From: Herpetosiphonaceae bacterium
Lineage (GTDB): Bacteria; Chloroflexota; Chloroflexia; Chloroflexales; Kallotenuaceae
Direction of reading: 5' to 3'
Length of the DNA stretch: 64,000 nucleotides
NCBI GenBank assembly: GCA_036374795.1
Contig: DASUTC010000003.1
Location: 1-64,000 of the forward strand
In this document: positions 16,106 through 19,695 of the stretch, piece after piece
How the letters are laid out: each line of letters starts with the position of its first letter
Numbering within the stretch: the stretch's first letter is position 1
Position numbers and translations under genes: made by a program
Notes under the pieces: model-generated
Databases searched by the model: none
Seen by the model: the letters and a program-made list of their open reading frames with translations, nothing else
Told to the model about the DNA's origin: nothing

Positions 16106-16780
16106 TCATGCCGTCGTCAGTTCTGCAACTGGGCTATGACGCTGATTTGATAACCAGCCAGCTAACCGTCGGTTAGTAGCTGCCAGAACGGAGCGCGCCG
16201 CCGCCTCGGCAACGCTGCTCCGCACGAATGCTGTGCCAAGCAGGTGTTCGACATCGATGTCCTGACAGGTGACATAGACCGTGATAACCTCACGCGATCC
16301 AAACTCTGCCGATTGTACACCACCGAGGCTAAACGGCGCGTGAGGAACGAAGAGCATATTGATCGCAGCAATTGCCGCTGTGCTAGCCGCATGTGCAATG
16401 CTCTGCTCGATCGGGTAGTGTGCTCGATACTTCTGCTCGCCGTTGATCAGCTCTACCTCGACAAACATGCCATCGATCTGCTGAATCTGCTCAACTCGTC
16501 CGAGCACAATGCGCTCCGACGCAGTAGTATCCCCTGTTTGAACCAGGCTAATCCGCCGGTAGTCGATCCGATAGGCGTAGCGCACGATCAACAAGCTCTC
16601 TATGTCGCGAACGATCTTTTTAGGCGAGCGACGCGACGAGGCTGCAACATGGATCTCGCCAATGCCATCATCGCTCAAAAAGATACGAGCACCACGGACT
16701 CCAGGGATGGTCAGCAGGGCCTGTTCGAGCGTAGCTGTGTCGGGCAAGGACACGCCACCCTGAGAGATTGCCTTCAACAC
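16106..16780 (-). CDS. Unknown two-part alpha-beta protein
   Basis: About 224 residues, not assigned. The first part (ALLTIPGVRGARIFLSDDG, GEIHVAAS, KKIVRDIESLLIVRYAYRID) reads like a small alpha-beta (ferredoxin/ACT-like) domain. The second (VEVELINGEQKYRAHYPIEQ, AASTAAIAAINMLF, VTVYVTCQ-like strand and AAARSVLAATNRRLAGWL) looks like another alpha-beta unit with an allosteric-domain flavour. GGAGG lies five bases before the GTG I selected, making it better than a TTG eleven codons upstream. 256 bases separate it from the kinase gene on the same strand; no terminator seen between them. Confidence 0.55.
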   Translation of the reverse strand: MLKAISQGGVSLPDTATLEQALLTIPGVRGARIFLSDDGIGEIHVAASSRRSPKKIVRDIESLLIVRYAYRIDYRRISLVQTGDTTASERIVLGRVEQIQQIDGMFVEVELINGEQKYRAHYPIEQSIAHAASTAAIAAINMLFVPHAPFSLGGVQSAEFGSREVITVYVTCQDIDVEHLLGTAFVRSSVAEAAARSVLAATNRRLAGWLSNQRHSPVAELTTA

Positions 16781-16984
16781 GAAAGCCTCCGGTAGCTGGA
16801 CAAATGGACGCAAATACAGATGACGGTACTCTGTTTAGGGTGAGATATTGTAATGCCTAATCGGATGATGCTGTGCAAAGGTATAAACTTTGTTAGGCAT
16901 TCTTGGTGATTTATAGAGTAGCGTATCTGGCTAGCCCCGGCGAGTCGCGAAATGGTACTTTAGGGCTAGGTTTCTATAGTTCTC

Positions 16985-18187
16985 TTAAACAGGCCAAAGT
17001 TGCGCTCCAAGAACGTTTGCCATGTCGTGCAAGACACGCTGGGCTGGGCGCACATCCTGTTGGGCCTGCGCTGCGGTAATAACTGCGGCTGCCAGATCCG
17101 ACAGGACGACGATGGCGGTGGGGGTATCGAAGTTGTCGGCCAGCGCGGCAAGGAATCGCGCGCGGTCCTGCTCGCCGTCGAGCACATAGCCGCGATCCGC
17201 GCCGGTGGCTGCCAGCGCCTCCCGCAGCGTCGTGACGATCTCCTCGGCGCGCGCGACCGCCTGATCGGCATACTCGAACTCCGCGCCATAGGGATAGCTC
17301 AAGATCGCCAGACGTAGCGCAGGCGGCGAGTAGCTCGTCAGCACCTCGTCGACAAAGACCATGTTGCCCAGCGATTTGGACATTTTCGTGCCGCTGAGGG
17401 ACACCATGCCGGTATGCATCCAGTAGCGCACGAACGGCGTCACGCCCGTCACCGGCTCTGCCTGCGCGATCTCGCAGGCATGATGCGGGAAGATCAGATC
17501 CGTGCCGCCGCCATGAATATCGATCTGCGAGCCCAGGTACTCGGTTGCCATGGTTGAGCATTCGATATGCCAGCCGGGGCGTCCTGGCCCCCACGGGCTC
17601 TCCCAGGCGGGCTCGTCCTCTTTTGAAGGCTGCCAGAGCACGAAATCCAGCGGATCGAGCTTGTTGGGATCGTCGGGGTTGTTGCCCATCTCATTCGCCA
17701 TCGCCAGCATCGTCTGGTAATCGGCGTGGGCGATTGCGCCGAAGTTCTCATGCGATGCGGCATGGTAGTAGACGCTGCCGTTGCGCACGTAGGCGTGGCC
17801 CTGCTCGATCAGCCTGGTGATGACCGAGATCATCTCTGGAATAACGCTGGTAGCCCGCACGTAGAACTCCGGCTTTTCGATGTTGAGCCGCTGCAACGCT
17901 CTGAGGTAGCGCTCGGTCTGCTGCTCGCCGAGATCCTGCCAGCGCACGCCGTCGCGCCGGGCTCGCTCAAACAGCGGCTCGTCGATGTCGGTCACGTTTT
18001 GCACGTAGCGGACGCGAAGGCCCTGATGTTCGAGGTAGCGTCGCAGCGTATCATAGACGACGCCCACGCGCGCATGGCCCAGGTGGCTGGTTTCGTATGG
18101 TGTGATACCGCAGACGTACATTTTGACCACGCCGCTGGGAAACTCTGCTTCCTCCACGCGGCGACTTAGCGTGTTATAAAGTCGCAT
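16985..18187 (-). CDS. Short cysteinyl-tRNA synthetase relative (CysRS or MshC-like ligase)
   Basis: Class I aminoacyl-tRNA-synthetase fold that activates cysteine. The HIGH-type site is CGITPYETSHLGHA (zinc Cys26), the second zinc Cys lies in GRPGWHIECSTM, His/Glu in FPHHACEIAQAE, and the KMSKS loop is GTKMSKSLGN. At 400 residues it lacks most of the C-terminal anticodon-binding region of bacterial CysRS (about 460 or more). Several blocks (CGITPY, DEPLFERA, NPDDPNKLDPLD) look closer to mycothiol ligase MshC than to E. coli CysRS, though the zinc Glu is CysRS-like. It could be the sole CysRS, a second copy, or a cysteine ligase for a thiol. Confidence 0.8.
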   Translation of the reverse strand: MRLYNTLSRRVEEAEFPSGVVKMYVCGITPYETSHLGHARVGVVYDTLRRYLEHQGLRVRYVQNVTDIDEPLFERARRDGVRWQDLGEQQTERYLRALQRLNIEKPEFYVRATSVIPEMISVITRLIEQGHAYVRNGSVYYHAASHENFGAIAHADYQTMLAMANEMGNNPDDPNKLDPLDFVLWQPSKEDEPAWESPWGPGRPGWHIECSTMATEYLGSQIDIHGGGTDLIFPHHACEIAQAEPVTGVTPFVRYWMHTGMVSLSGTKMSKSLGNMVFVDEVLTSYSPPALRLAILSYPYGAEFEYADQAVARAEEIVTTLREALAATGADRGYVLDGEQDRARFLAALADNFDTPTAIVVLSDLAAAVITAAQAQQDVRPAQRVLHDMANVLGAQLWPV

Positions 18188-18279: not shown

Positions 18280-18377
18280 GTGCAAGTTCAAAGAGGCTTG
18301 TAGACAGTGCTCTGCTCCGACCCTGAAAAGATTTAAGCTCGTTGGGAGCATCCCACAGCCTGGCCTGACGGCACGCT
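18280..18377 (+). repeat. Dispersed 3'-end element, degenerate copy G
   Basis: Begins GTGCAAGTTCAAAGAGG, similar to copy A, has TTGGGAGCATCCCA in place of the G/C core and ends CCTGGCCTGACGGCACGC. Its end overlaps the stop codon of the minus-strand redoxin-like gene. Confidence 0.55.
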
Positions 18378-18828
18378 AAATATTACACTGCATCGCGATA
18401 GCCTGCATCCAGCCGCTCACATCGACGGGAGTCGGCAGCTCGTCCATGGCGGCGACAAGCCACTGCTGGTACAGATCGGCGTAGCGATCCAGCGCGAAGA
18501 TGCCAGCCTGGGCCGTCTCAGGAAGGAATCGCTCGTACACCTTGTTGGCGCTGTCGATCAGGATCGTGAACGGCAACGAGCCGAGCGTGCCCGCCGCATC
18601 CTCGCTGCCGACCACGACGATACCCCGCGCCGGTAGCTGACGCCAATCTTCCGCGTGTCGTGCTAGATGCTGAAGATACTGCTGCGCATCAACGCCACTG
18701 CGGAAGATCAGCAGGAGCAGATGTTCGCGCCCGCGCTGTTTGGCGAGATTGTGCGGCTGCCCGTATTTGTCGGGCAGCGTGAACAGCGGCACAACTTTAT
18801 GGAGCGGCAACTTTGCACTCTGTTTCAT
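18376..18828 (-). CDS. Redoxin-like (AhpC/TSA-fold) protein without catalytic cysteines
   Basis: 150 residues with a very good GGAGGTGGAT before the ATG. The opening PLFTLPDKYGQPHNLAKQRG matches peroxiredoxin/thioredoxin-like proteins, followed by LLLLIFRSGVDAQQYLQHLA, where a peroxidatic Cys or CxxC should stand after the F-R strand; none is present. Later VVVGSEDAAGTLGSLPFTIL and AGIFALDRYADLYQQWL keep the fold. The only cysteine is in the last residues (MQCNI). Probably a non-catalytic thioredoxin-fold protein. Divergent from the methyltransferase gene 69 bases away. Confidence 0.7.
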   Translation of the reverse strand: MKQSAKLPLHKVVPLFTLPDKYGQPHNLAKQRGREHLLLLIFRSGVDAQQYLQHLARHAEDWRQLPARGIVVVGSEDAAGTLGSLPFTILIDSANKVYERFLPETAQAGIFALDRYADLYQQWLVAAMDELPTPVDVSGWMQAIAMQCNI

Positions 18829-18897: not shown

Positions 18898-19695
18898 ATG
18901 CGCGATAACTATGCGCTCGACGCCGAGCTGTACGATGTTGTGTATGCCGATTATACCGATGATATTGCGTTCTACGTCGAGGAGACGCGCCAGGCGGATG
19001 GGCCGTGTCTGGAGCTTGGCTGCGGCACGGGGCGGGTGCTGATTCCGGTAGCCGAGGCCGGGGCGACCGTGACGGGCCTGGATGTTGCCAAGCCGATGAT
19101 CAGCCGTGCGCGGCGCAAGGTGGCGGCGCTTCCCGACGAGGTGCGCGCGCGCGTGACGCTCGGCGAGGGCGATATGCGCTCGTTCAAGCTCGATACGCAG
19201 TTTGCGCTGATCTACATTCCGTTTCGCGCTTTTCTGCACCTTATGCAGGTCAGCGATCAGCTTGTGGCGCTCAACAATATTCGGCGGCATCTGCGGCCCG
19301 GCGGTACACTGGCGCTCAATTTCTTCGATCCGTCGCTCGAATATATCGTCAGCCACAGCGGGCCGATCGGCGGGGCGCTGCATACCACTGGCGAGACGTT
19401 TGTGGAACCGCGCAGCGGGAATCTGCTGGTGGAGTGGGCAACCGTGCAGTATACCCAGCATTTACAGCGGATCGACCAGTATTTTATCTATGATGAGGTT
19501 GATGCGCGCGGGCGTGTGGTTGGGCGGCTGTATCGTCATTTGCAGATGCGCTATATCTTTCGCTGGGAGTTCGAGCATCTGCTGGCGCGCTGCGGCTTTG
19601 AGGTGGCGGCGCTGTATGGCTCGTTCAACCGGCAGCCCTATGGCAAGGCAGGCCAGGAGTTGATCTGGGTGGCGCGAAAATGTGAGGATGGGTAG
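18898..19695 (+). CDS. Class I SAM-dependent methyltransferase
   Basis: 265 residues. Motif I is CLELGCGTGRVLIPVAEAG, with TVTGLDVAKPMISRAR as motif II and GEGDMRSFKLDTQFALIYIP as motif III/IV. The DAELYDVVYADYTDDIAFYV opening is typical of small-molecule or unknown-substrate methyltransferases of the Methyltransf_25 group. The C-terminal half has YIFRWEFEHLLARCGFEVAA, common in the same group. Substrate not predictable. Followed immediately by a modular repeat, so its terminator is unclear. Confidence 0.85.
   Translation: MRDNYALDAELYDVVYADYTDDIAFYVEETRQADGPCLELGCGTGRVLIPVAEAGATVTGLDVAKPMISRARRKVAALPDEVRARVTLGEGDMRSFKLDTQFALIYIPFRAFLHLMQVSDQLVALNNIRRHLRPGGTLALNFFDPSLEYIVSHSGPIGGALHTTGETFVEPRSGNLLVEWATVQYTQHLQRIDQYFIYDEVDARGRVVGRLYRHLQMRYIFRWEFEHLLARCGFEVAALYGSFNRQPYGKAGQELIWVARKCEDG

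Follow-up and report, generated by a model that had tools for sequence, protein, structure and literature searches.

Known cysteine ligases and related systems

The closest described systems are the mycothiol ligase MshC (PDB 3c8z, 8hfm) and cysteinyl-tRNA synthetase (CysRS; NCBIfam TIGR00435, Escherichia coli structures 1li5 and 1u0b), in both of which L-cysteine is activated to Cys-AMP at a Zn site. Cys-GlcN-Ins is a known intermediate of mycothiol, and the bacillithiol ligase BshC is not known to be homologous to CysRS. The Zn ligands of MshC are C43, C231 and H256 (PMC9736012), and a form of CysRS without the anticodon-binding domain, CysRS*, has been documented (PMC9437257). Complete mshA-D sets were restricted to Actinobacteria in a 2018 survey, and a 2019 commentary (PMC6336425) lists an unidentified thiol in Chloroflexus aurantiacus; an incomplete literature search returned no paper on an MshC-like protein in Chloroflexota.

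The gene considered here lies on the reverse strand at 16985..18187 of the window, i.e. the whole 64 kb stretch of Chloroflexia DNA that was analysed, and its product resembles MshC in its length of approximately 400 aa, its lack of the CysRS anticodon-binding domain, its loop insertion, its Cys/Cys/His Zn site, its GITPY loop and its KMSKS motif. It shares with CysRS the catalytic fold, the HIGH and KMSKS motifs and a Zn site that includes the fourth ligand, a Glu, but differs from it in the missing anticodon-binding region, in the loss of N237 and the DDK lysine, in its placement in a separate clade and in the existence of a CysRS in its own genome. Unlike canonical MshC, to which it is approximately 41% identical over the core, it keeps the CysRS-type residues E239 and W256.

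Integrity and family assignment

The open reading frame has an ATG start, encodes 400 aa with zero internal stops, and specifies a class I aminoacyl-tRNA synthetase catalytic core, matching Pfam PF01406 at 354 bits, with DALR_2 sub-threshold and CysS_C without a match. A second, full-length cysS of 470 aa on another contig of the genome (C199) has both DALR_2 (51.8 bits) and CysS_C, neither of which is above threshold in the 400-aa protein; the 400-aa protein therefore lacks the anticodon region, which bears out an earlier note on this DNA, which had read the protein as a truncated CysRS relative and had proposed a search for another cysS. Short proteins of this type terminate 88–134 residues past KMSKS, and the CysRS group medians are 189–194. 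Orthologues in related genomes are 391–402 aa long with dN of 0.20–0.29 and dS of 1.1–2.4, and the gene is therefore under purifying selection and not a decayed fragment; the AlphaFold model of its product has a mean pLDDT of 93.6.

On the NCBIfam models, the 400-aa protein scored 393 bits for cysS (TIGR00435, cut-off 340) and 378–381 bits for MshC (TIGR03447, cut-off 485), whereas its full-length cysS companion in the genome scored 501 and 282 bits, respectively. Canonical actinobacterial MshC proteins reached 607–734 bits on TIGR03447, and further short forms from that sample of actinobacteria approximately 345–446 bits. Within the class, of which 131 genomes were scanned, short forms scoring approximately 330–414 bits on the MshC model were widespread beside a longer form (approximately 330 or less). 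Given these scores between the families, the protein is by score neither a typical CysRS nor a canonical MshC, and on its sequence it is not the latter; the missed MshC equivalog cut-off and the slightly higher cysS score (393 vs 378) count against assignment to the mycothiol pathway. The cysS cut-off is passed by the 400-aa protein and the model fails to separate the short clade; if the MshC-type reading is right, short MshC-like proteins are hidden as ‘cysteine--tRNA ligase’ in databases because that cut-off is too permissive. Short MshC-like proteins of several phyla pass it (367–439 vs 340), so that they would receive this name in automatic annotation.

Phylogeny

In a tree of 93 rows, many of which were MAGs, all full-length CysRS fell on one side and all short proteins on the other (SH-aLRT 99), and the same split received 100/100 in a catalytic-core tree from which the diagnostic loop had been deleted. 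On the short side were canonical MshC, the 400-aa protein and its orthologues across the class (in its own genome, in C. aurantiacus and probably in Roseiflexus and Herpetosiphon); Acidimicrobiia-type actinobacteria were also represented there, as were some MAGs from CPR and deltaproteobacteria. Within it, canonical MshC formed a single nested clade, and the 400-aa protein was placed in a Chloroflexia clade. When a full-length CysRS was added from a Parcubacteria MAG that has both forms, it grouped with the long side and left the split undisturbed. The view in the earlier note that the protein is closer to MshC than to CysRS is thus supported by the phylogeny that it had proposed, and neither of the contrary observations that it had named, a clean placement inside CysRS and a genome with no second cysS, was encountered. 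Separately, in Acidimicrobiaceae MAGs a short MshC-like gene stands in tandem with a full-length cysS (locus L045, 7983-9185 and 9206-10594; also genomes G142 and G148), and a further short MshC-like copy occurs elsewhere in these genomes.

Diagnostic residues and structure

The residues of cysteine activation are retained in the alignment, all of the following coordinates being on the reverse strand. The Zn ligands are Cys26 (18110..18112), equivalent to C43 of Mycobacterium smegmatis MshC and C28 of E. coli CysRS, Cys210 (17558..17560), equivalent to C231 of MshC, and His235 (17483..17485), equivalent to H256 of MshC. The HIGH-type ATP motif, HLGH, occupies residues 35–38 (18074..18085) and the KMSKS motif residues 268–272 (17372..17386), both located from the alignment and the sequence itself. 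An MshC-type loop insertion, EMGNNPDDP, spans residues 166–174 (17666..17692) and is nearly absent from full-length CysRS.

In a comparison of 30 full-length CysRS with 63 short proteins, the position of E. coli CysRS N237 was N in 30/30 of the former and 0/63 of the latter, and the IDDK lysine was K in 28/30 and 0/63, respectively. Gly168 of the loop insertion was Gly in 60/63 short proteins and a gap in 24/30 CysRS, and Pro171 was present in almost every short protein, those of MshC among them, but a gap in 29/30 CysRS. Counting against an MshC-type function, the fourth Zn ligand, the CysRS-type E239, is kept in the 400-aa protein and is S, G or T in 9/9 canonical MshC.

Three blocks, at residues 26–31, 69–76 and 170–181, had been named in the earlier note as MshC-like, and these fared differently. 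The first, CGITPY, is rejected as an MshC marker because P30 also occurs in 13/30 full-length CysRS, the second, DEPLFERA, does resemble the DDPL(L/F)ERA of MshC, and the NPDDPNK of the third falls within the loop insertion that MshC also has and that almost no CysRS possesses. The AlphaFold model superposed on MshC structures at 2.0–2.2 Å rmsd and on most CysRS chains at 2.6–3.2 Å, a better predicted fit that is supportive of the MshC reading but not decisive.

Homologues of mycothiol pathway genes in the genome and the class

The genome encodes an MshA-like glycosyltransferase that scored 389 bits on MshA (cut-off 462.5; next family 123) and 104 bits on BshA, and the closest solved structure to which is Corynebacterium glutamicum MshA. 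Five residues of the inositol-phosphate site, the equivalents of N25, K78, Y110, T134 and R154, which in MshA contact inositol phosphate, are kept by every Chloroflexia MshA-like protein that was compared; in the nearest group of paralogues, two of the five positions are occupied by F and A. Two observations count against equating these genes with mshA, namely that they score below the family cut-off and that the MshA tree did not settle where the Chloroflexia clade stands with respect to canonical MshA and to a third group. A second MshA-related glycosyltransferase (L222, 7249-8637, and its orthologues) scored 319 bits, groups with actinobacterial paralogues, and carries F and A in place of two of the inositol-phosphate residues.

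Two MshB/Mca-type deacetylases are present in the genome, the first scoring 239 bits on MshB (cut-off 224) and 257 on Mca (cut-off 277) and the second 206 bits on MshB. Inositol-1-phosphate synthase is also present (G000:C248), as it is in 94/131 genomes of the class; it went undetected in the other 37/131, which counts against a mycothiol-type pathway throughout the class. The check for mshA and mshB proposed in the earlier note was therefore positive in a related form. No convincing MshD was found in the genome, which also weighs against the pathway: two tandem-GNAT proteins scored 84 and 80 bits against a cut-off of 163, and the tandem GNATs of contig C48 were not firmly assigned as MshD because the solved structures closer to them belong to other tandem GNATs without known role. 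The C. aurantiacus genome (G010) contains an MshC-like gene (L231; on G010:C1 at approximately 1022022-1023218), an MshA-like gene (387 bits), an MshB-like gene (172 bits) and inositol-1-phosphate synthase.

Gene neighbourhoods

In a deltaproteobacterial MAG (L040) the MshC-like gene is followed by an adjoining MshA-like gene, and in a MAG of Levybacteriota (L239) an MshA-like gene is divergent to a histidine-phosphatase gene that is followed by the MshC-like gene. The MshC-like gene of a Parcubacteria MAG (L035) is preceded by genes for a PIG-L deacetylase and an MFS transporter, the deacetylase lying two genes away. Thus, three different mycothiol-like steps recur beside, or two genes from, the ligase in three phyla. 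The histidine-phosphatase of L239 (8706-9320), located between the MshA-like and MshC-like genes, is a candidate MshA2 phosphatase. Two null results count against a general linkage: the mshA-, mshB- and mshC-like genes were unclustered in the Chloroflexia loci examined, and a full-length MshA-like match was absent in 3/5 CPR-type genomes tested. Two sets of GT4 genes were not accepted as mshA. The gene beside the MshC-like gene in a Roseiflexus-like genome (L230) belongs to generic GT4 Pfam families and gave only 86 bits to the MshA-like query. At two loci of actinobacteria (L036, L039), the GT4 genes lie approximately 7 kb away from the MshC-like gene; these read from their sequence as PimA-like, in a thrS/HIT/pgsA cluster, and were not counted.

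Upstream of the MshC-like gene in the window, on the same strand, is a gene for a degenerate redoxin-like protein of 150 aa (18376..18828, reverse strand) with a weak peroxiredoxin/thioredoxin match (E=0.04); it is kept beside the MshC-like gene in the window's family, and the two are presumably associated. The divergent neighbour is a class I SAM methyltransferase (18898..19695, forward strand), conserved with both of these genes, and the trio persists in a locus in which the outer gene order differs (L017). A gene downstream of the MshC-like gene (16106-16813, reverse strand), kept in the family and encoding a protein of 223–245 aa, had no Pfam or NCBIfam match. No tRNA gene was found as a partner in the 64 kb window.

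Proposed function and alternatives

Judged by its descent, its residues and its gene neighbours, the protein most likely works as a mycothiol-type cysteine ligase from a lineage other than the canonical one. More specifically, we assign a probability of roughly 0.72 to the 400-aa protein being a tRNA-independent, MshC-type cysteine ligase that makes Cys-GlcN-Ins, or a close analogue, outside the canonical mycothiol producers. Under this proposal, L-cysteine would be activated with ATP to Cys-AMP at the Zn site, inositol-1-phosphate synthase, the MshA-like glycosyltransferase and an MshB/Mca-type deacetylase would together supply glucosaminyl-inositol, and the cysteine would be transferred to the amine of this presumed acceptor. 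The simplest product would be Cys-GlcN-Ins itself, which, possibly after further N-modification, may be the low-molecular-weight thiol of Chloroflexia, with a presumably protective role like that of mycothiol. As a Cys-glucosamine thiol, the proposed product would be like that of the BshC-dependent bacillithiol pathway, but the MshA-like gene is unlike its bacillithiol counterpart in scoring so much lower on BshA than on MshA.

By analogy with N-methyl-bacillithiol, in which the SAM methyltransferase NmbA acts, Chloroflexia could conceivably make N-methyl-Cys-GlcN-Ins via a SAM methyltransferase that replaces MshD, the conserved divergent neighbour at 18898-19695 being the gene in question in the window's family, with related versions in some CPR. 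This is a long shot, and any role of the neighbour in the pathway is speculative. It is far closer to CorZ (9sot; 294.8 bits), a peptide alpha-N-methyltransferase that methylates a free peptide amine, than to NmbA (9ri2; 31.7 bits), and was rejected as an NmbA orthologue on these scores.

In an unlikely alternative, the protein would be an MshC-lineage cysteine ligase acting on an amino sugar or amine other than GlcN-Ins, and the resulting thiol would be chemically distinct from mycothiol. The changes that mark canonical MshC, i.e. loss of the fourth Zn ligand and replacement of W256 by Y or F, are absent in the 400-aa protein, its MshC score and the MshA score of its presumed partner are far under the canonical range, and the gaps in inositol-1-phosphate synthase across the class and in full-length MshA-like genes among certain CPR genomes that encode the short protein point in the same direction. 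Against this, the MshA-like proteins retain all five inositol-phosphate-site equivalents, two of which are F and A in the nearest paralogues, and inositol-1-phosphate synthase is present in both this genome and C. aurantiacus.

It is very unlikely that the protein is instead a truncated accessory CysRS charging a tRNA, such as tRNA-Cys under stress or an alternative selC-like tRNA, as is the case for CysRS* in Desulfobacterales. Such an enzyme would be in keeping with cysS narrowly outscoring the other NCBI models, with the full set of synthetase catalytic motifs and with the CysRS* precedent, but the window holds no tRNA gene, the protein groups with MshC rather than CysRS (in a tree without CysRS* sequences), the CysRS-invariant N237 has been lost and the MshC loop gained, and MshA-like or deacetylase genes cluster with its relatives in other phyla. 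A second, redundant CysRS of minimal size, retained for gene dosage or for resistance to antibiotics, is how the NCBI cut-offs would annotate the gene, but is highly improbable on the same points and given that many genomes of the class carry the short form together with the long one, the short form being an old, separate clade and not a set of recent duplicates. Of the two outcomes offered in the earlier note, an undescribed thiol and a minimal CysRS, the second is not favoured and the first is conceivable, although Cys-GlcN-Ins would be the simpler product.

Implications

In databases, the MshC-like gene would pass for a second gene of a common enzyme of protein synthesis. Mycothiol has been described as the thiol of Actinobacteria; if the proposed mycothiol-type function is true, a mycothiol-like pathway would span the Chloroflexota class examined and would also reach scattered CPR and deltaproteobacterial genomes. 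The gene set of C. aurantiacus, with its MshC-, MshA- and MshB-like genes and inositol-1-phosphate synthase, makes the old thiol observation in that organism directly testable.
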